From contig NZ_LMPS01000005.1 of the NCBI RefSeq assembly GCF_001424405.1, forward strand, positions 62,001 to 126,000: a stretch of 64,000 nt of DNA, in the 5' to 3' direction. The notes under the pieces are model-generated. The model saw only the letters and a program-made list of their open reading frames with translations, was not told where the DNA came from and made no database searches. The translations under genes and the position numbers were made by a program. Source of the DNA: Dyadobacter sp. Leaf189. GTDB taxonomy: Bacteria > Bacteroidota > Bacteroidia > Cytophagales > Spirosomataceae. Below, piece by piece: positions 4,239-12,627 of this stretch. The stretch's first letter is position 1. Every line of letters starts with the position of its first letter.

Positions 4239-4679
4239 ATGAAAACGAGGGTTTTTACTTTGAAAAAGACTGCCACAGCGCTCTGTCTGTTTCTATCCAT
4301 TTTTCTAATGGCATTTTCCTGTGACGACCACGTGGTACCGGAAGAGCCTACGGAAGAGCCGGTAACGGCATTCACATCAACAAGCGCGGGTCTTGCATTT
4401 AATCTAGTTATTTATAACTACACATTTGGATCGCTCGGTATGGTACCTGTGATGGAGCATGGGATTGTTAGGGTAAATGCAGACGTCAACAGCGTTGGTA
4501 TTCTTCCGACAGTAGATGACAAAAAGATTATATCAAACGAGGCTGCCGCCGTTAAAATCTTTGGCGTATTTGAAGTTGTAACTCCTGAGCTTAAAAAAAT
4601 CTACTACAGACCATACGCTATCCTCGAGAATGGAAATGTGATTTATGGTAATGTAAATTCAATTATTTCCAATCCATAA
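4239..4679 (+). CDS. Predicted lipoprotein of unknown function
   Basis: A 146-residue protein with a basic start (MKTRVFTLKK), a hydrophobic stretch and a lipobox ending LMAFSC followed by DD, so the mature protein would begin with a lipidated Cys near residue 28. The acidic residues after the Cys are unlike the usual Bacteroidetes surface-export signal, so inner-leaflet versus surface location is open. After a PEEPTEEP linker comes a beta-rich region ending in YYRPYAILENGNVIYGN, which resembles the fibronectin type III-like repeats of Bacteroidetes surface proteins. I do not recognise a specific family. It stands alone, with its own terminator downstream. Confidence 0.7.
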   Translation: MKTRVFTLKKTATALCLFLSIFLMAFSCDDHVVPEEPTEEPVTAFTSTSAGLAFNLVIYNYTFGSLGMVPVMEHGIVRVNADVNSVGILPTVDDKKIISNEAAAVKIFGVFEVVTPELKKIYYRPYAILENGNVIYGNVNSIISNP

Positions 4680-4696: not shown

Positions 4697-4730
4697 AAAA
4701 AGCCACACCTCTCCGTGTGGCTTTTTTTTT
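4697..4730 (+). terminator. Intrinsic terminator after the lipoprotein gene
   Basis: AGCCACAC (4701-4708), a 6-base loop and GTGTGGCT (4715-4722) form a perfect 8-bp stem followed by a run of T to 4730. It ends only 25 bases before the start codon of the PKS fusion gene. Confidence 0.85.
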
Positions 4731-4755: not shown

Positions 4756-6714
4756 ATGCTCATTCATGGCGATACGATCAGGCTGCTGAGAATCCCTTTC
4801 TCTTTTTTTCTTCTTCCATTATTCCTTTTTGCATACAGTCAGGCCGAAACGGTTGTGCACCACCAGGCCTTGCTCAGTTTGCTGGTTATTCACTTGCTGG
4901 TATATCCCGCCAGCAATGGTTACAATAGCTACATTGACAAAGATGAAGAGAGTGTCGGCGGGTTGGAAAAGCCTCCGCTTCCTACCTCGGAGCTGTTTTA
5001 TATAACCATCTTGATGGATATAGCTGCCATCCTGATCGCCTTCTTTTTTATCAATGCATTCTTTGCAGGCTGTCTCCTGCTGTACATAGCCGCTTCCCGC
5101 GCTTACAGTTCACCATCAATCAGGCTCAAAAAATATCCGATTGGCGGTTTTCTTACGGTGGTGTTTTTTCAGGGCGCATTTACTTATTACATGTCCATCG
5201 CCGGAATCTCCGGACAAGCGCTTGAACTGACACAGGCAAACTGCTTTGTACTTCTGGGCTGCTCCTTTCAGATCGCCGGTGCCTATCCGCTGACGCAGAT
5301 ATACCAGCATCAGCAGGATCTGAAAAACAGGGTAATTACATTAAGCTACAAGCTGGGATACACAGGAACTTTCGCGTTCACAGCAGTAATGTTCCTGCTC
5401 TGTAACCTGTTCTACTATCTGTATTTTACAGCGCTGGAGCTGGGAATGATTTTTTTCATGATCCAGGTGTTTTTCGCTCCCATTGTGATCTATTTCGCAA
5501 CCTGGTTTTATAAGGTAAAAAAAGACCATAGCGAGGCCAATTTCAGAAATACCATGCGTATGAACTGGATAGCGGCGATTTGCATGAATAGTTGTTTCAT
5601 CGTTTTAATTATCATTAACAGAATTCCCTTGAGTTATCTATCAGCAATTGAGACAGCCGTTCCCGATCATCGTTATTCCCAGGAAACACTCACATCATTT
5701 TACTCAGGATCCACCGATGACCTGACTACGCAGCGAAAAATCAGGATCGTGGCCGGAAAAACGGGGATTGAAACGAGGTATTCTGTCATAAGTGATTTTG
5801 ATAAAGAACCCGCAGAGTTTAAGTTCTTTAATAAAACCCGTGACCTGCTTCCGGAACCCGGGCTTAGTCAGCGGATGCAGCTTTACCAGCAGCACGCTAC
5901 GAAACTTTCCAGAAAAGCGATAGACAAGATCAAGGATTTCGAGGCTATCAAACCAAACATTACGCATTTGATTACAGTAACCTGTACAGGCCTTTTCGCG
6001 CCCGGTCTGGATGTGGAGCTTATGCGGGAACTGGACCTGAACCCTTCGGTACAACGCAGCAGCGTTAATTTTATGGGCTGCAATGCGGCTATCATTGCAT
6101 TGAAGAATGCAGATGCCATTTGCAAAAGTAACCCGGCTGCTACTGTGTTGGTGGTGTGTACCGAGCTGTGCACCATTCATTTTCAGAGGCAGTACAATGA
6201 AGATTACTTGTTGTCCAACCTGCTTTTTGGCGACGGCGCAGTTGCGGCATTGGTTACTTCTCAGCCTTCCGGCGACTTTGCTCACCAGGTTAAAATCGAG
6301 TCATTTAACTCGATGATATTGCACAATGGGTATTCTGATATGGCCTGGCAGCTTTCAGAGACGGGTTTTATCATGAAGCTTACATCTTATGTACCTGATC
6401 TGATCAGTAAGAATATCAAGCCGATGCTGCAGGCGATCGGATTGAAGGCCGACGATTACAAACACTGGGCTGTGCACCCGGGCGGCAAGCGCATTGTGGA
6501 TGATTTTGCCCTGGCGCTCGACCTCGACAAATGCCTGCTGGCGCCCACTTACCAGGTGTTAAAGGATTACGGGAATATGTCTTCTCCAACCGTACTCTTC
6601 GTGTTGAAAGCAGTTTTGGAAAAGGCTAAACCGGAACATCAGGGTGACCGGATCTTCGGCGCGGCATTCGGTCCCGGTCTGAGTATCGAAACCATGCAGC
6701 TGCGGTATGTTTAA
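4756..6714 (+). CDS. UbiA-type prenyltransferase fused to type III polyketide synthase
   Basis: One 652-residue frame with two halves. Residues 1 to about 290 are a multi-span membrane protein with UbiA prenyltransferase signatures: N54..D61-K-D63 (the first Asp-rich prenyl diphosphate motif) and Y177..D188 (YPLTQIYQHQQD, the second). From about residue 293 a complete chalcone/stilbene synthase-like type III PKS follows, with the catalytic triad C442 (NFMGCNAA), H574 (AVHPGG) and N607 (YGNMSSP). I start at the ATG at 4756; a GTG at 4717 keeps the frame but lies inside the terminator hairpin. The PKS half would extend an acyl starter with malonyl-CoA to an alkylresorcinol or alkylpyrone; the UbiA half would prenylate an aromatic. 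Overlaps the methyltransferase gene by 8 bp. In related genomes I would expect two genes; a sequencing indel at the joint cannot be excluded. Confidence 0.85.
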   Translation: MLIHGDTIRLLRIPFSFFLLPLFLFAYSQAETVVHHQALLSLLVIHLLVYPASNGYNSYIDKDEESVGGLEKPPLPTSELFYITILMDIAAILIAFFFINAFFAGCLLLYIAASRAYSSPSIRLKKYPIGGFLTVVFFQGAFTYYMSIAGISGQALELTQANCFVLLGCSFQIAGAYPLTQIYQHQQDLKNRVITLSYKLGYTGTFAFTAVMFLLCNLFYYLYFTALELGMIFFMIQVFFAPIVIYFATWFYKVKKDHSEANFRNTMRMNWIAAICMNSCFIVLIIINRIPLSYLSAIETAVPDHRYSQETLTSFYSGSTDDLTTQRKIRIVAGKTGIETRYSVISDFDKEPAEFKFFNKTRDLLPEPGLSQRMQLYQQHATKLSRKAIDKIKDFEAIKPNITHLITVTCTGLFAPGLDVELMRELDLNPSVQRSSVNFMGCNAAIIALKNADAICKSNPAATVLVVCTELCTIHFQRQYNEDYLLSNLLFGDGAVAALVTSQPSGDFAHQVKIESFNSMILHNGYSDMAWQLSETGFIMKLTSYVPDLISKNIKPMLQAIGLKADDYKHWAVHPGGKRIVDDFALALDLDKCLLAPTYQVLKDYGNMSSPTVLFVLKAVLEKAKPEHQGDRIFGAAFGPGLSIETMQLRYV

Positions 6715-7402
6715 GTCGCGGAGCCCACGTAAGGAGTTACTGGACGAAGACGATATCCCGCCAGCGGCTCTTTTCCGGAATCTTCGGGAGCTCGATTTCA
6801 TTAACCACTGGCTCGGAGGTTATGATATCTCGTTTTCAGCATTGAAAAAGGTACTGAAAGGAGACAGATCCTGTCAACTGGTTGACATCGGCTGCGGAGG
6901 AGGGGATACCTTGAAGAGAATAGCGACCTGGAACAAAAAGGCGGGATACAAGCTGGAACTCTGTGGCATTGATATCAAACCTGTTTGCATTGATTATGCA
7001 AAGCAAAACATTGGTAATCTGAAAATTGATCTGATCTGCGACGATTACCGGAATTTGTTCAATCACGTTGAAAATGCAGATATCATTCACGCGTGTCTTT
7101 TTTGTCACCATCTTACCGACAATGAGCTGGTAGAGCTGGTCTCCTTTGCATTGAAGCACAAAGTCGTTCTGATCATCAACGATTTGGAAAGGAATGCATT
7201 GGCGCATTATTCGATACGTTTTCTTACCCGTCTTTTTTCAAAATCATACCTGGTGAAACACGACGCACCGCTTTCGGTATTGCGAGGTTTCAAGAAACGC
7301 GAGTGGCTTTCTATCCTAGGCGAAGCTGGTGCCGGGCGATATTCGGTGCATAATAAATGGGCATTTAGGCACGAAGTGATTGTTTATGGAAATGCAGACT
7401 GA
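6707..7402 (+). CDS. Class I SAM-dependent methyltransferase in the PKS operon
   Basis: A 231-residue soluble methyltransferase. Motif I is VDIGCGGGDT at residue 59 onward, followed by an acidic end of strand 2 (LCGIDIKP) and a motif near ADIIHACLFCHHL where the family has its strand 4. It begins in the last codons of the PKS fusion (ATG at 6707, 8-bp overlap) and itself overlaps the next gene, so translation is coupled. A likely substrate is the resorcinol made by the PKS. By gene order it parallels SrsB of the Streptomyces griseus srsABC operon, although SrsB belongs to a different (membrane) methyltransferase family. O- versus C-methylation is not decidable here. Confidence 0.85.
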   Translation: MFKSRSPRKELLDEDDIPPAALFRNLRELDFINHWLGGYDISFSALKKVLKGDRSCQLVDIGCGGGDTLKRIATWNKKAGYKLELCGIDIKPVCIDYAKQNIGNLKIDLICDDYRNLFNHVENADIIHACLFCHHLTDNELVELVSFALKHKVVLIINDLERNALAHYSIRFLTRLFSKSYLVKHDAPLSVLRGFKKREWLSILGEAGAGRYSVHNKWAFRHEVIVYGNAD

Positions 7403-8510
7403 ACAATACGAATGCGCTATTATCGGCGGCGGGCTCTCGGGACTTTGTCTCGCAATCCAGCTGGCCGGGCAGGAGCGGTCTGTTATTGTTTTCGAAAAAG
7501 GTCGGTACCCGTTCCACAAAGTTTGCGGCGAGTACATTTCCATGGAAAGCTACGGATTCCTGCACACGCTTGGCTTCCCATTTGAAAAGGCCGGGATACC
7601 GATGATCAGCAAGCTCGGGATCAGCTCCGAAAGTGGTTTTATGCTCAATCAGAATCTAAAATCCGGTGGTTTTGGTATCAGCCGCTTTTTGCTGGATCAT
7701 GAACTGAGTCTGCGCGCCCGACAGCTTGGTGTGGTGATCATGGAAGAATGCAGGGTGAACGACGTAAAACAAGAGGGCAAAGCCTATTTCCTGCAAACAA
7801 CGCAGGGTACATTCATGGCCAAAGTTGTTTGCGGGAGCTACGGGAAATACGCGCCGCAGTATATCAATGAGCCGAAAAGCGGGGGCGACAATAACTATAT
7901 CGGCGTCAAATACCACATTAAAACAGACTTTCCCGCTGACCGCATTGAGTTGCACAACTTCAAAGATGGTTACTGCGGAATTTCCAAAGTGGAAGGGGAT
8001 AAATATTGTCTGTGCTACCTCACAACTTCGAGGAATTTGCAGGAAAACGGAAAGGATATCAGACAAATGGAAGAACACGTCCTGTTCAAAAATCCGTTTC
8101 TAAGGAAATATTTTCTCAATTCTGAGTTTCTGTACAAACAGCCGCTGGTGATCAGCAATGTTCACTTTCAGAAAAAGCAAACTGTTTTAAACGGCGTGTT
8201 GCTCCTCGGTGATGCGGCCGGCACCATCACGCCGCTTTGCGGAAATGGAATGAGCATGGGAATGCGCGCTTCCAAATTACTGGCTGTCGAAATTGTAAGG
8301 TACCTTCAAAATCAGCAGTCTGCCGCAGAACTGGCTGCCAATTACAAGCGGGAATGGGACCGTGCATTCAAAAACCGAATTACTGCGGGCTACTACCTGC
8401 AAAATCTTTTTGGTAAAAAAGTTACAACGGATCTTGCATTGCGGTTTCTGCACAATGCGCCTGCGTTGACAGACAAGCTCATTGGTTTAACTCACGGGCC
8501 AGCGTTTTAG
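7386..8510 (+). CDS. FAD-dependent oxidoreductase in the PKS operon
   Basis: A flavoprotein of about 375 residues. Seen: the dinucleotide-binding GGGLSG near residue 14, the FEKGRYPFHKVCGEYIS block shared with geranylgeranyl reductase-like and aromatic hydroxylase flavoproteins, and GVLLLGDAAGTITPLCGNGMSMGMRAS near residue 275, the second FAD contact. Start chosen at ATG 7386; ATG 7392 and TTG 7380 are alternatives. It overlaps the methyltransferase by 17 bp and, tail to tail, the lycopene cyclase gene by 32 bp. Ring hydroxylation of an alkylresorcinol (as SrsC does) or reduction of a prenyl chain are the two likely jobs; the sequence does not separate them. Confidence 0.85.
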   Translation: MEMQTEQYECAIIGGGLSGLCLAIQLAGQERSVIVFEKGRYPFHKVCGEYISMESYGFLHTLGFPFEKAGIPMISKLGISSESGFMLNQNLKSGGFGISRFLLDHELSLRARQLGVVIMEECRVNDVKQEGKAYFLQTTQGTFMAKVVCGSYGKYAPQYINEPKSGGDNNYIGVKYHIKTDFPADRIELHNFKDGYCGISKVEGDKYCLCYLTTSRNLQENGKDIRQMEEHVLFKNPFLRKYFLNSEFLYKQPLVISNVHFQKKQTVLNGVLLLGDAAGTITPLCGNGMSMGMRASKLLAVEIVRYLQNQQSAAELAANYKREWDRAFKNRITAGYYLQNLFGKKVTTDLALRFLHNAPALTDKLIGLTHGPAF

Positions 8511-9207
8511 GGGTTGTCGCGGACAGCTTTCTTTCCAATAGTTTTTCAAAAACAAAAACATTCAGGATCAGCATCAGCAATCCGTAAAAAAGGTCTTCTG
8601 CCGGAATGGTAAGAAATCGCACACCTATGTTTTCAGCATCGTTATACCATACAACCGGTTCATCGAGCCCGGTGCCGGTCAGTATTCCGTTTACGATCAC
8701 AAACGGGATAATCAGGTACATATGCGCATAATAGAACATACTCAGCCACCGTGGTTTTACGACAAATCGCAGGTACAGCAGGAATGCGGCCAGCAGGATT
8801 GAAGTTGAAAAAGTGTACGCGCGTTCATGAAAAATCACAGCTGAAACCAGCGCCAGACTGATAAAGAACAAGGTGATAAAACCTTCTGCACGTACCTTAA
8901 AACCTTCCCTGTGAAAGATTTTGAATGAATAATAAGAGAAAACGCAGGCATAAGGAATGCAGATGAAGAAGAGGATCTCCTCAATGGGCAGCTGAAACAG
9001 GTAAATGCCCGTCAGGTACTTTGGTGTAAATCCCCACACACCGATTTGGGTAAAGAAGCTGTCCCAGATGATGAATGGAACAGCGCATAGCAAAAGCGAC
9101 GGCCAGAGAATATCCCAATGTTTGGACAAGCCGATTTTTGGGTGAAAAGAAGCAAGTAACGGCACTGAAATGGAGGCGAGATCAACCACCAGGTACAGGT
9201 AATTCAT
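8479..9207 (-). CDS. crtY: Lycopene beta-cyclase, CrtYcd/CarR type
   Basis: An integral membrane protein of 242 residues with about seven hydrophobic spans and two copies of the lycopene cyclase domain, as in fused CrtYc-CrtYd proteins of Bacteroidetes. Key motifs are LPIEEILFF in the first half and IPAEDLFYG in the second, the acidic pairs needed for cyclisation. It would close both ends of lycopene to beta-carotene. It is the last gene of the carotenoid operon, overlaps crtZ by four bases (ATGA), and ends inside the convergent oxidoreductase gene. The symbol is used by function; this type is unrelated to the flavoprotein CrtY. Confidence 0.88.
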   Translation of the reverse strand: MNYLYLVVDLASISVPLLASFHPKIGLSKHWDILWPSLLLCAVPFIIWDSFFTQIGVWGFTPKYLTGIYLFQLPIEEILFFICIPYACVFSYYSFKIFHREGFKVRAEGFITLFFISLALVSAVIFHERAYTFSTSILLAAFLLYLRFVVKPRWLSMFYYAHMYLIIPFVIVNGILTGTGLDEPVVWYNDAENIGVRFLTIPAEDLFYGLLMLILNVFVFEKLLERKLSATTPKTLARELNQ

Positions 9208-9677
9208 TTAGCAAGTGTTTTTTTGGCTTCGCGGAAATATTTCAGAGGTACCCACAGCATTCCAAAGCATTCGCCCTCGTTTTTGCCCAGATGTTTGTGG
9301 TGCATTTTATGGGCGCGCCTGATTGCACGGAGGTAAACAGAATCGGTGTTCCGGAAAACTTTGAACCGCTGGTGGATAAATACATCGTGCACCACGAAAT
9401 AGGTAAACCCGTATAATGTAATGCCCAGGCCGATCCAGAAAAGGTAATTAAATCCCTGGTTCAAACCAACGGCAAGACAGGTAATCCCCGGCGTTGCGAA
9501 AATGACGAAGAAGTAGTCATTCTTTTCAAAGAAATCCCCGTCATCACGCTGGTGGTGATCATGGTGCAGGAACCACAGAAAACCGTGCATAAGGTACTTA
9601 TGCGCCAGCCAGGCGACACATTCCATGCCGATGAAGGCGGCGGCTACTATGAGCGTATTTGAAAACCAGATTGGCAT
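9204..9677 (-). CDS. crtZ: Beta-carotene hydroxylase
   Basis: A di-iron membrane hydroxylase of 157 residues in the CrtZ/fatty-acid hydroxylase superfamily. Its histidine boxes are all visible: HKYLMH and HHDHHQ near residues 26-43, HDVFIH near 110 and HKMHHKH near 135. It would hydroxylate the beta-rings of beta-carotene to give zeaxanthin. Translation probably couples to the cyclase gene through a four-base overlap, and idi lies 30 bp upstream. Confidence 0.92.
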   Translation of the reverse strand: MPIWFSNTLIVAAAFIGMECVAWLAHKYLMHGFLWFLHHDHHQRDDGDFFEKNDYFFVIFATPGITCLAVGLNQGFNYLFWIGLGITLYGFTYFVVHDVFIHQRFKVFRNTDSVYLRAIRRAHKMHHKHLGKNEGECFGMLWVPLKYFREAKKTLAK

Positions 9678-9707
9678 ATAATCGTAAAGCTACCCGGACC
9701 AGCCGGC

Positions 9708-10229
9708 TTAAATTTTCAGTTTGAGTTGTTCAGCTACGGCAGCAAAGCAAATCTTGAACCATTCGGTATAATTTCCGGGATTCAGGATCAGGTCTGCTTT
9801 GACGTCGTTCATTGTCATGTATTTATATTCACTTACCTCATCGGTATTGATCAACGGCTTTTCATCCGATATCCCCCAGAACACATGGTCGAGCTCGTTT
9901 TCTGTAAGTCCGTTTTCGAGCTGAACGCGGTATTGAAAAGTGTACAGGAAGTTGAGATCAGCGGAAATCCCCATTTCTTCCCTCAGCCTTCGGGAGGCAG
10001 CGCGGTTGGCAGATTCTTCTGGAAAAGGGTGACTGCAGCAGGTGTTCGACCACAATCCTTCTGAATGGTATTTGCCGAACGCGCGGCGCTGCAACAGCAT
10101 TTCCCCTTTTGTATTAAAAATAAAAACCGAGAATGCACGGTGCAGCATTCCTTTCTGGTGCGCTTCCAGTTTTGGCATCAAGCCAATTTCAACATCTTCT
10201 TCGTTGACCAGTATTACTTGATCTTCCAT
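9708..10229 (-). CDS. idi: Isopentenyl-diphosphate delta-isomerase, type 1
   Basis: A Nudix-fold enzyme of 173 residues that interconverts IPP and DMAPP. Catalytic Cys is in NTCCSHP near residue 63 and catalytic Glu in TENELDHVF near residue 112; the Nudix-like helix is AASRRLREEMGI. It sits inside the carotenoid operon, 50 bp after crtB and 30 bp before crtZ, so prenyl precursor supply is co-expressed with carotenoid enzymes. No GGPP synthase (crtE) is in the window. Confidence 0.93.
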   Translation of the reverse strand: MEDQVILVNEEDVEIGLMPKLEAHQKGMLHRAFSVFIFNTKGEMLLQRRAFGKYHSEGLWSNTCCSHPFPEESANRAASRRLREEMGISADLNFLYTFQYRVQLENGLTENELDHVFWGISDEKPLINTDEVSEYKYMTMNDVKADLILNPGNYTEWFKICFAAVAEQLKLKI

Positions 10230-10279
10230 ATTATGTGGGTTATCGGGTTTAGCGTTGCCTGAATGTCAAAGTTACAACG

Positions 10280-11116
10280 TCATAACAGGTCAAACTGGTG
10301 CCTTAAAAGGGATCGAAACATCAATCCGAACTTGTCATAATCGGGGATCCGTATCCTTGCATTCATCACCTTTTCCGGCGGCGTCGCCTTGATTCTCAGA
10401 AACAGCTTTTTATAATAATAATAGGCAAGATAAACCCCGCGGCGGGCTCCTCCGGGCAGCTTTTTGATGCCGATCAGCGCCTGGTCAAAATCCTGCTGTA
10501 TCTCCTGCTGAATAATTTCTTTATCAACATGCGAAAAGTGGTCGAAGTTGACGCCCGGGAAATAAGTCCGGCCGAGGTCCTGATAATCAGCTTTTAAGTC
10601 GCGCAAAAAGTTAACCTTCTGAAAAGCAGCGCCCAGCTTCATCGCGTAAGGTTTTAGCTCATTGAAACTCTCTTTGTTACCTTCTGTGAAAACGCGCAGG
10701 CACATCAGTCCAACCACTTCTGCCGAGCCGAGCACATATTCGTGAAATGTATCGCGCGTGTGATCCTTTTTTTGAAGGTCCATTTCCATGCTTTTCAGGA
10801 AAGTATCAATCAATTCCCATTCAATCTGGTAAGCATTGACAACATGCTGAAAACTGTTTAGGATCGGATTAATGCTGATTTTTTTATCAATTGCCTCCAC
10901 CGTCGCCTTCCTGATTTCCGCCATCATCGCTTCCTTATCATAGTCATGAAAGCTGTCAACGATTTCGTCTGCCAGGCGCACGAAGCCGTAAATGGCGTAG
11001 ATAGGTGCGCGAAGCGCAGGCTTGAGAAAATAAATTCCCAATGAAAATGAGGTACTGTATAATTGGGTCGTCTTTTTGCTGCACGATGCCGACAGGTTGT
11101 CATAGAGCATTTTCAT
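10280..11116 (-). CDS. crtB: Phytoene synthase
   Basis: A 278-residue squalene/phytoene synthase that would join two GGPP molecules. The two Asp-rich motifs are visible: RLADEIVD near residue 46 (DxxxD type) and FLRDLKADYQDLGRTYFP near residue 170, with AEVVGLMC between them. It starts 8 bp after crtI, so the two are transcribed together. Confidence 0.93.
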   Translation of the reverse strand: MKMLYDNLSASCSKKTTQLYSTSFSLGIYFLKPALRAPIYAIYGFVRLADEIVDSFHDYDKEAMMAEIRKATVEAIDKKISINPILNSFQHVVNAYQIEWELIDTFLKSMEMDLQKKDHTRDTFHEYVLGSAEVVGLMCLRVFTEGNKESFNELKPYAMKLGAAFQKVNFLRDLKADYQDLGRTYFPGVNFDHFSHVDKEIIQQEIQQDFDQALIGIKKLPGGARRGVYLAYYYYKKLFLRIKATPPEKVMNARIRIPDYDKFGLMFRSLLRHQFDLL

Positions 11117-11124
11117 GGTGCGAT

Positions 11125-12627
11125 TCAGTTTAGGGATTTGAGTAGTTCAGCAGCGGCAATCTGCCCGGAAATAATCGATGGCGGTACTCCCGGACCGGGA
11201 ACGGTAAGCTGGCCTGCGTAATAGAGGTTTTTCACTTTCGTACTTCTCATTTTTGGTTTGAAGATGGCGGTTTGCATTAATGTATTTGCAAGTCCGTACG
11301 CATTGCCTTTGTAGGCGTTATAGTCACTTTTGAAGTCGGATACCGAGTAGCTTTTCTTCACAATAATGTGATCCCTGATTGGCACGCCTGCAAACTTTTC
11401 AAGCCTGTCCATTAACAAGTTAAAATAACTTTCGCGCACTTCCTCGGGATCCGTAAGTCCGGTTGCAATGGGCATTAAAACAAAAATATTCTCTTTGCCC
11501 TCAGGCGCTACGGTAGGATCGGTGCGGGAGGGGCAGCATACGTAAAACAGCGGGTTCGACGGCCATTTTTTATCTTTATATATTTCAACGGCATGCTGAC
11601 TAAAATCCTCGTCGAAAAAAAGGTTGTGATGTCTCAACCGATCAATTTTCCTGTCCACACCCAGATAGAACAGCAGGCAGGAAGGCGCGAATGTGCGGCT
11701 TTCCCAGTAAGACTCCTGGTACATTCTGTGCTGCGGCGAAAGCAGGGTCGATTCAATATGATGGTAATCCGCGCTGCCTATTACGCCATCCACATTCCTG
11801 ATGATCCCGTTTGAGCGGATCTGCCGGATCCGGTCATCAGTGATTTCAAGCTTTTCCACCTTCTGACCGGTACGAAATGAAACGCCGACACTCTCCGCAA
11901 CTTTGCCGAATGCCTCGGCCACTCTCGCAAATCCACCGATAGGGTAGTAGGTTCCCTGTTTAAGTCCTGAAAAGTTCATGAGGCTATACAATGCAGGCGT
12001 ATCCTTCGGCATAGCGCCCAGGAAAAGAACCGGGAATTCGATCAGCGCGAGCAGGCGAGGGTCTTTGAAATACTGTCTTGCGTGGTCGGAGAAGGATTTG
12101 AACAGCTGGATTTTCAATGCTTTTTTCAAAAGCGAGAAGCTGAAAAACTCGGTAACTGAATGCCCCGGTTTATAAACCATGTCGAGCATACCCACATTAT
12201 ATTTGAATTCACCCTCCTCTATGAATTTCCTGAGCTTGGCTGCACTGCCGGTTTCAATACTTTCAAAAAGAGCGCATATCTCATCAAAATTTTCCGGAAT
12301 ATCCATTACCTCACCTTCACCGAAAATAACGGCAAATCCAGGATCAAGCTTTTTGAGCTCGTAGAAATCGGAGGCTGATTTTCCGAACTGCTCAAAAAAA
12401 CGTTCATACACATCGGGCATCCAGTACCAGCTGGGGCCCATATCAAACACAAACCCTTCCTCGGTGAAGCTGCGCGCGCGTCCGCCGATGGTATCGTTTT
12501 TCTCAAACACAGTTACCCTTGCGCCTTCTTTGGCCAAAACCGCCGCTGCTGCAAGGCCCGAAAAGCCCGAGCCGATCACCGCGATCTCGTGTGCGTGTCC
12601 ATTCATTTTAGGATCTGTGTTTTGCAT
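11125..12627 (-). CDS. crtI: Phytoene desaturase, CrtI type
   Basis: A 500-residue FAD enzyme that desaturates phytoene towards lycopene. Seen: AVIGSGFSGLAAAAVLA with a following FEKNDTIGGRARSF, FDMGPSWYWMPD near residue 68, and the C-terminal bacterial-type desaturase signature LYYAGQLTVPGPGVPPSIISGQIAAAEL. The ATG at 12627 overlaps the carH stop by 20 bp; a second ATG at 12606 is also possible and would begin just after the carH stop. Either way it is the first enzyme gene behind the photoreceptor gene. Confidence 0.93.
   Translation of the reverse strand: MQNTDPKMNGHAHEIAVIGSGFSGLAAAAVLAKEGARVTVFEKNDTIGGRARSFTEEGFVFDMGPSWYWMPDVYERFFEQFGKSASDFYELKKLDPGFAVIFGEGEVMDIPENFDEICALFESIETGSAAKLRKFIEEGEFKYNVGMLDMVYKPGHSVTEFFSFSLLKKALKIQLFKSFSDHARQYFKDPRLLALIEFPVLFLGAMPKDTPALYSLMNFSGLKQGTYYPIGGFARVAEAFGKVAESVGVSFRTGQKVEKLEITDDRIRQIRSNGIIRNVDGVIGSADYHHIESTLLSPQHRMYQESYWESRTFAPSCLLFYLGVDRKIDRLRHHNLFFDEDFSQHAVEIYKDKKWPSNPLFYVCCPSRTDPTVAPEGKENIFVLMPIATGLTDPEEVRESYFNLLMDRLEKFAGVPIRDHIIVKKSYSVSDFKSDYNAYKGNAYGLANTLMQTAIFKPKMRSTKVKNLYYAGQLTVPGPGVPPSIISGQIAAAELLKSLN

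Follow-up and report, generated by a model that had tools for sequence, protein, structure and literature searches.

Type III polyketide synthases (PKSs) are known to occur in small operons with modifying enzymes. The hidABC genes for hierridin in cyanobacteria and a three-gene operon of Planctomycetota each combine a type III PKS, a methyltransferase, and an FAD oxidoreductase, and the operon-borne planctomycete PKSs that were tested produce alkylresorcinols (PMC10896814). The operon of Dyadobacter described here resembles these sets at the level of broad families; it differs from them in gene order, and neither a fusion nor a UbiA gene is reported in the conserved operon of those organisms. 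A closer counterpart is the split UbiA/type III PKS pair of Bacteroidota, found in Cytophaga aurantiaca, Ferruginibacter paludis, and other Dyadobacter species. The proteins of this pair are orthologous to the two halves studied here, and the genes lie in the same order and precede the same methyltransferase and FAD oxidoreductase genes. A short start/stop overlap joins the two genes in many cases, as it did ancestrally in the present locus. The split pair differs in encoding two proteins, with a stop codon or a frame change at the joint.

Natural fusions of each half with other partners have also been described. The IspH-UbiA "Rosetta stone" fusions of sulfate reducers carry a soluble enzyme, presumed to be cytoplasmic, on the N-terminal side of UbiA (PMC4746011). 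They are like the Dyadobacter gene in that a soluble biosynthetic enzyme is fused in frame to a UbiA-family protein, but the soluble enzyme is N-terminal there and C-terminal here. In the Steely hybrid type I/III PKS of Dictyostelium, another natural fusion, the type III PKS is likewise C-terminal. Its fusion partner is a type I PKS and not a membrane enzyme. The structure of the Steely1 type III PKS (2h84) matched the model of the Dyadobacter PKS half with a Z score of 45. For SpaO, a long form and a C-terminal short form are proposed to arise from one frame through an internal start (PMC13059759). Compared with SpaO-type genes, the Dyadobacter gene was fused from a two-gene operon, and its predicted short product is a whole enzyme. 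The UbiA-family protein described in the ebo-operon paper sits in a different operon. No UbiA-type III PKS fusion was reported in the open-licence PubMed Central papers searched.

The window is the whole stretch of 64,000 nucleotides that was analysed from Dyadobacter sp. Leaf189 (contig NZ_LMPS01000005.1). Its features are listed in Table 1. The initial annotation, made from the sequence alone, had described a membrane UbiA prenyltransferase and a type III PKS in one uninterrupted frame. The analysis of the open reading frame confirmed this observation: the frame encodes 652 aa plus a stop; the UbiA domain comes first, and a complete type III PKS follows it. The UbiA match, Chal_sti_synt_N (4e-28), and Chal_sti_synt_C (2e-23) all passed the Pfam cut-offs. 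The frame is open upstream from either GTG 4717 or ATG 4756. The ATG is invariant in 32/32 fused homologues, so the start chosen in the initial annotation is correct; its placing of the joint near 5630 also agrees with the position found (5620–5634).

Table 1. Features of the fused gene and its operon neighbours (positions within the window)
Feature	Position	Strand	Evidence
Fused UbiA-type III PKS frame	4756..6714	+	ORF and Pfam; same single frame in 32 Dyadobacter genomes
UbiA-family prenyltransferase half (aa 1–291), nine predicted membrane helices	4756..5628	+	Pfam UbiA 8e-17; AlphaFold; profile match to 4od4, E 7e-4
First Asp-rich motif NGYNSYIDKD (aa 54–63)	4915..4944	+	N54, D61, D63 invariant in 20 diverse homologues and 32/32 fused
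Second motif YPLTQIYQHQQD (aa 177–188), non-canonical	5284..5319	+	Y177, Y183–D188 invariant in 20 homologues
TM9 (aa 263–288), last helix before the PKS	5542..5619	+	AlphaFold helix; preceded by a positively charged cytoplasmic-side loop
Linker codons 289–291 (R-I-P), long product only	5620..5628	+	Pro291 invariant; pN/pS 0.21
Retained translation-initiation region (putative) around internal TTG	5599..5648	+	Low GC3, weak structure
TTGAGT, predicted internal start codon of free PKS	5629..5634	+	Invariant 32/32; derived from the ancestral TTGA overlap of start and stop, which now lies in frame
Type III polyketide synthase half (predicted), 361 aa + stop	5629..6714	+	Pfam; PDB matches
Catalytic Cys442	6079..6081	+	Invariant in 32 fused
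Catalytic His574	6475..6477	+	Invariant in 32 fused
Catalytic Asn607	6574..6576	+	Invariant in 32 fused
Class I SAM methyltransferase, next operon gene	6707..7402	+	Overlaps PKS end; conserved neighbour
FAD-dependent oxidoreductase (geranylgeranyl-reductase/UbiH-like), last operon gene	7380..8510	+	Conserved neighbour

The motif and catalytic residues named in the initial annotation were each found at the number given, and seven of them (N54, D61, D63, D188, C442, H574, and N607) do not vary among the 32 fused homologues. The second UbiA motif is a subfamily variant, YQHQQD, in which Gln replaces the first Asp of DxxxD and the last Asp alone is kept. The UbiA half belongs to the UbiA superfamily by its profile match and its nine membrane helices; the fold assignment is based on Pfam, the 4od4 profile match, and the helix pattern, the fold matching having covered the PKS half. 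No NCBIfam equivalog scored above its cut-off. The genome has five further UbiA-family genes. At aa 191–192 (5326–5331), just after the second UbiA motif (QQDLKDGV), N191 and R192 are unique to this strain, and the remaining 31 fused genes carry D or E and then G; UbiA function in Dyadobacter sp. Leaf189 may be altered by this change. The C-terminal half carries the chalcone/stilbene synthase N and C domains and the Cys-His-Asn triad, and its model matched PKS11, PKS18, and chalcone synthases in the PDB (Z 44–46). We predict that it acts as a type III PKS.

The genus-wide search of 48 Dyadobacter genomes showed that 32 gave a single full-length match (identity 72% and up) and 13 gave two adjacent matches. 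The split state was confirmed in sequence for 12 of these 13, and the remaining genome (G026) was counted from two overlapping matches in the search table. Three genomes have no intact pair: one gave no match (G025), and two retain remnants (G001 and G007). The remnants consist of UbiA fragments and the FAD gene, the PKS being lost, and a more distantly related type III PKS is encoded elsewhere in both genomes. Homologues spanning both halves, which the initial annotation had proposed to look for, thus exist throughout the fused set at 72–92% identity. Among named records, those of D. crusticola DSM 16708 (92% identical) and D. psychrotolerans are fused. The initial annotation had also considered that every close relative might encode two separate proteins; this is true of the 13 split genomes but not of the 32 fused ones.

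All other Bacteroidota relatives examined at the joint have two separate genes. Split pairs in the same order were seen across the phylum, in line with the statement in the initial annotation that UbiA genes adjoin type III PKS genes there. The class-level search gave more than 12 same-frame matches outside Dyadobacter as candidate fusions, and in each of those checked a stop precedes the PKS. A long PKS frame in one further genome (G178) was likewise rejected, as its genes are separate with a stop between them. The plasmid collection searched contained no full-length relative of the fused gene. The gene is a genuine fusion of the Rosetta-stone type, being fused in several independent genomes while its parts are separate elsewhere.

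The joint of the split Dyadobacter genes suggests how the frames were united. In these species the TTG start of the PKS lies inside TTGA, and the TGA is the UbiA stop. Two split loci (L024 and L028) have just three codons upstream in the PKS frame. The joint spacing is one base longer in the fused genes, as shown by aatcattttcctTTG (fused locus L021) against aatcatttcctTTG (split locus L024), so one length change would be enough to join the frames. In the tree built from both halves with the joint columns excluded, the fused genes group with one or two changes of state. The free tree needs two, and a single fused clade was not rejected (p-AU 0.40). A single fusion event, brought about by a one-base change in length, would fit these data.

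The TTG from which the PKS itself would start is still present within the fused frame, at 5629. The codon alignment of 32 distinct fused genes showed this TTG in 32/32 and the adjoining AGT in 32/32, counts from species that share ancestry and are not independent tests. The TTG is the sole invariant Leu codon among 37 invariant-Leu columns, and the AGT is the sole invariant Ser codon among 18 invariant-Ser columns. The two terminal codons of the PKS served as a positive control: they overlap the ATG that starts the methyltransferase and are likewise invariant. The GC3 at the joint is 0.275 against a gene mean of 0.56, the second lowest among 637 windows. The RNA minimum free energy is −1.4 kcal/mol at the joint and −8.7 kcal/mol at 467 other in-frame TTGs. 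The joint is less structured than its synonymous shuffles in 32/32 genes (mean z +1.29), and part of the low structure comes from the hydrophobic TM9 codons (synonymous-shuffle mean −5.0). The joint codons form the second-lowest synonymous-divergence block of the gene, whose fourfold sites are saturated (tree length 18 substitutions per site). The fused gene has in these respects a conserved in-frame internal start codon in an open initiation region. As a start codon TTG is weak. On the simplest reading, ribosomes may still initiate the PKS at TTG 5629; since the start codon and its context are kept at the nucleotide level, a separate PKS is probably still produced in the fused clade.

The lowest synonymous divergence of the gene lies not at the joint but at codons 219–233 (5410–5454; TTTTATTATTTGTAYTTTAC...CTTGGAATGRTTTTTT). 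GGA (230) and TTT (233) are invariant there in 32/32, and the core of the block is common to several split Dyadobacter. The block, which lies about 200 nt before the PKS start, may be a regulatory element. An internal promoter was considered for the block and rejected, as it has no TAnnTTTG match and is partly common to split species.

The topology of the UbiA half bears on where the PKS domain of a full-length product would lie. AlphaFold modelled both domains of the fused protein confidently (pLDDT 90), with nine long membrane helices, a short linker after TM9, and the first PKS strand at residue 293. A model of the UbiA half made without an alignment (pLDDT 48) was set aside. The predicted inside loops contain approximately 13.5 K+R against approximately 1.4 in the outside loops, a bias that places the N-terminus inside and the C-terminus outside. 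COQ2 is likewise N-in/C-out, with its Asp-rich motifs at the inner face and its C-terminus at the outer face (PMC11047366). The PKS is therefore predicted to be attached opposite the UbiA active site, outside the cytoplasm and away from CoA substrates. With a C-out UbiA, direct handover from PKS to prenyltransferase would need an altered topology.

The retained TTGAGT, its A/T-rich unstructured context, and the C-out UbiA together favour a two-product gene: one product would be the full-length UbiA-PKS fusion, and the other a free PKS in the cytosol, translated from the internal TTG. We give this reading a probability of about 0.6. It would start from adjacent ancestral ubiA and type III PKS genes, probably translationally coupled. 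The two frames would have been united when the TTGA overlap changed in length by one base in an ancestor shared by one Dyadobacter clade. Initiation at ATG 4756 would now yield the long UbiA-PKS protein, since no stop is left between the halves, and initiation at the preserved TTG 5629 would yield free soluble PKS. The free PKS would do most or all of the polyketide synthesis in the cytoplasm. UbiA would act in the membrane, bearing the PKS domain as a C-terminal attachment that standard topology would put outside the cytoplasm.

We also considered that the long UbiA-PKS has a rearranged last helix, so that its PKS domain is cytoplasmic and pairs with free PKS, holding a type III PKS dimer on the prenyltransferase. 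This self-scaffolding arrangement is a speculative version with rather low odds. If true, one gene would provide an anchored metabolon with adjustable stoichiometry.

The linker bears on whether the long product has a role. As there is no stop between the halves, any UbiA made bears the PKS. The two genes could still be independent enzymes in effect, the free PKS being active and the PKS tail on UbiA a tolerated read-through that outside the cytoplasm would be unfolded, clipped, or without activity. The retained internal start and the C-out topology suit this explanation. The missing stop is not strongly improbable under it either: in a neutral simulation along the fourfold-site tree, 16% of runs were stop-free in the linker, so a stop-free linker alone is weak evidence. 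We nevertheless regard it as unlikely, because the linker pN/pS (0.21) is comparable to that of the UbiA half (0.17) and the PKS half (0.18), and Pro291 is invariant in 32/32 although its third base varies. Carrying a large, translocated domain of no use on each UbiA should also be costly, yet a stop has not reappeared at the joint in any fused species. The long form seems to matter too.

The initial annotation had read the gene as a single enzyme whose PKS hands newly made resorcinol or pyrone straight to the attached prenyltransferase. In its strict form, with the fusion as the sole product, this obligate bifunctional enzyme would fit the frame kept intact in all 32 fused species, the invariance of both catalytic sets, the purifying selection on the linker residues, and the confident folding of both domains. 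It gives no reason for the nucleotide-level conservation of TTGAGT and its unstructured context. The charge pattern and COQ2 (PMC11047366) indicate a non-cytoplasmic UbiA C-terminus, and relatives that share this operon context function with two separate proteins. On balance this strict form is improbable. The single-enzyme interpretation is thus partly supported: a clade-wide in-frame fusion with both catalytic sets under purifying selection is real, and the kept internal start and the predicted outside C-terminus of UbiA speak against product handover within one enzyme. The choice between resorcinol and pyrone, and the prenylation of that product, are matters that we infer.

A programmed +1 frameshift at the joint would let slipping ribosomes reach the TGA within TTGAGT and release a free, normal UbiA, and TTGA is indeed kept in 32/32, its former TGA stop lying in the +1 frame. 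This is very improbable, as there is no recognised slippery site or stalling codon, and a stop requirement alone leaves the invariant AGT (not AGC) unexplained, whereas the initiation context explains the same letters. A sequencing or assembly error at the joint, where a single base would suffice to part the frames, is ruled out by the identical frame in 32 independently assembled genomes and the named type-strain records.

The order UbiA, PKS, methyltransferase, FAD oxidoreductase was found in 25/29 related loci of Cytophagales, Chitinophagales, and Saprospiraceae. Lying together in a single operon (5629–8510), the genes for the PKS, the methyltransferase, and the FAD oxidoreductase make up a hid-type gene set by broad family. 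Since this set resembles the hierridin and planctomycete alkylresorcinol arrangements, an alkylresorcinol-like lipid is our best guess. The products of the fused gene, acting with the methyltransferase and the FAD enzyme, would give a polyketide that is prenylated, methylated, and oxidised and that is probably a lipid of alkylresorcinol or quinol type.

Several features surround the operon. Convergent genes on the minus strand (8479–12627) lie beside it in many Dyadobacter and were named by eye as carotenoid genes: lycopene cyclase-like, CrtZ-like hydroxylase, IPP isomerase, phytoene synthase, and desaturase. They could share isoprenoid supply with the operon. Just upstream, a gene for a small secreted protein or lipoprotein-like protein (4239–4679) has no Pfam match; it is present in D. 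crusticola and absent from the other loci compared. A strong terminator-like hairpin (4697–4726) ends approximately 30 nt before ATG 4756, which leaves scant room for an operon promoter.

The operon is widespread in Bacteroidota and, as far as literature searches show, uncharacterised; its product is probably a prenylated polyketide lipid. The fused gene is a warning for genome annotation, since a fused frame need not mean a fused enzyme. What looks plainly like a bifunctional enzyme may instead come from a gene with two products, its old start codon being still under selection. The fusion spans a clade while split sister species survive, and the genus would thereby record a coupled gene pair becoming one gene.
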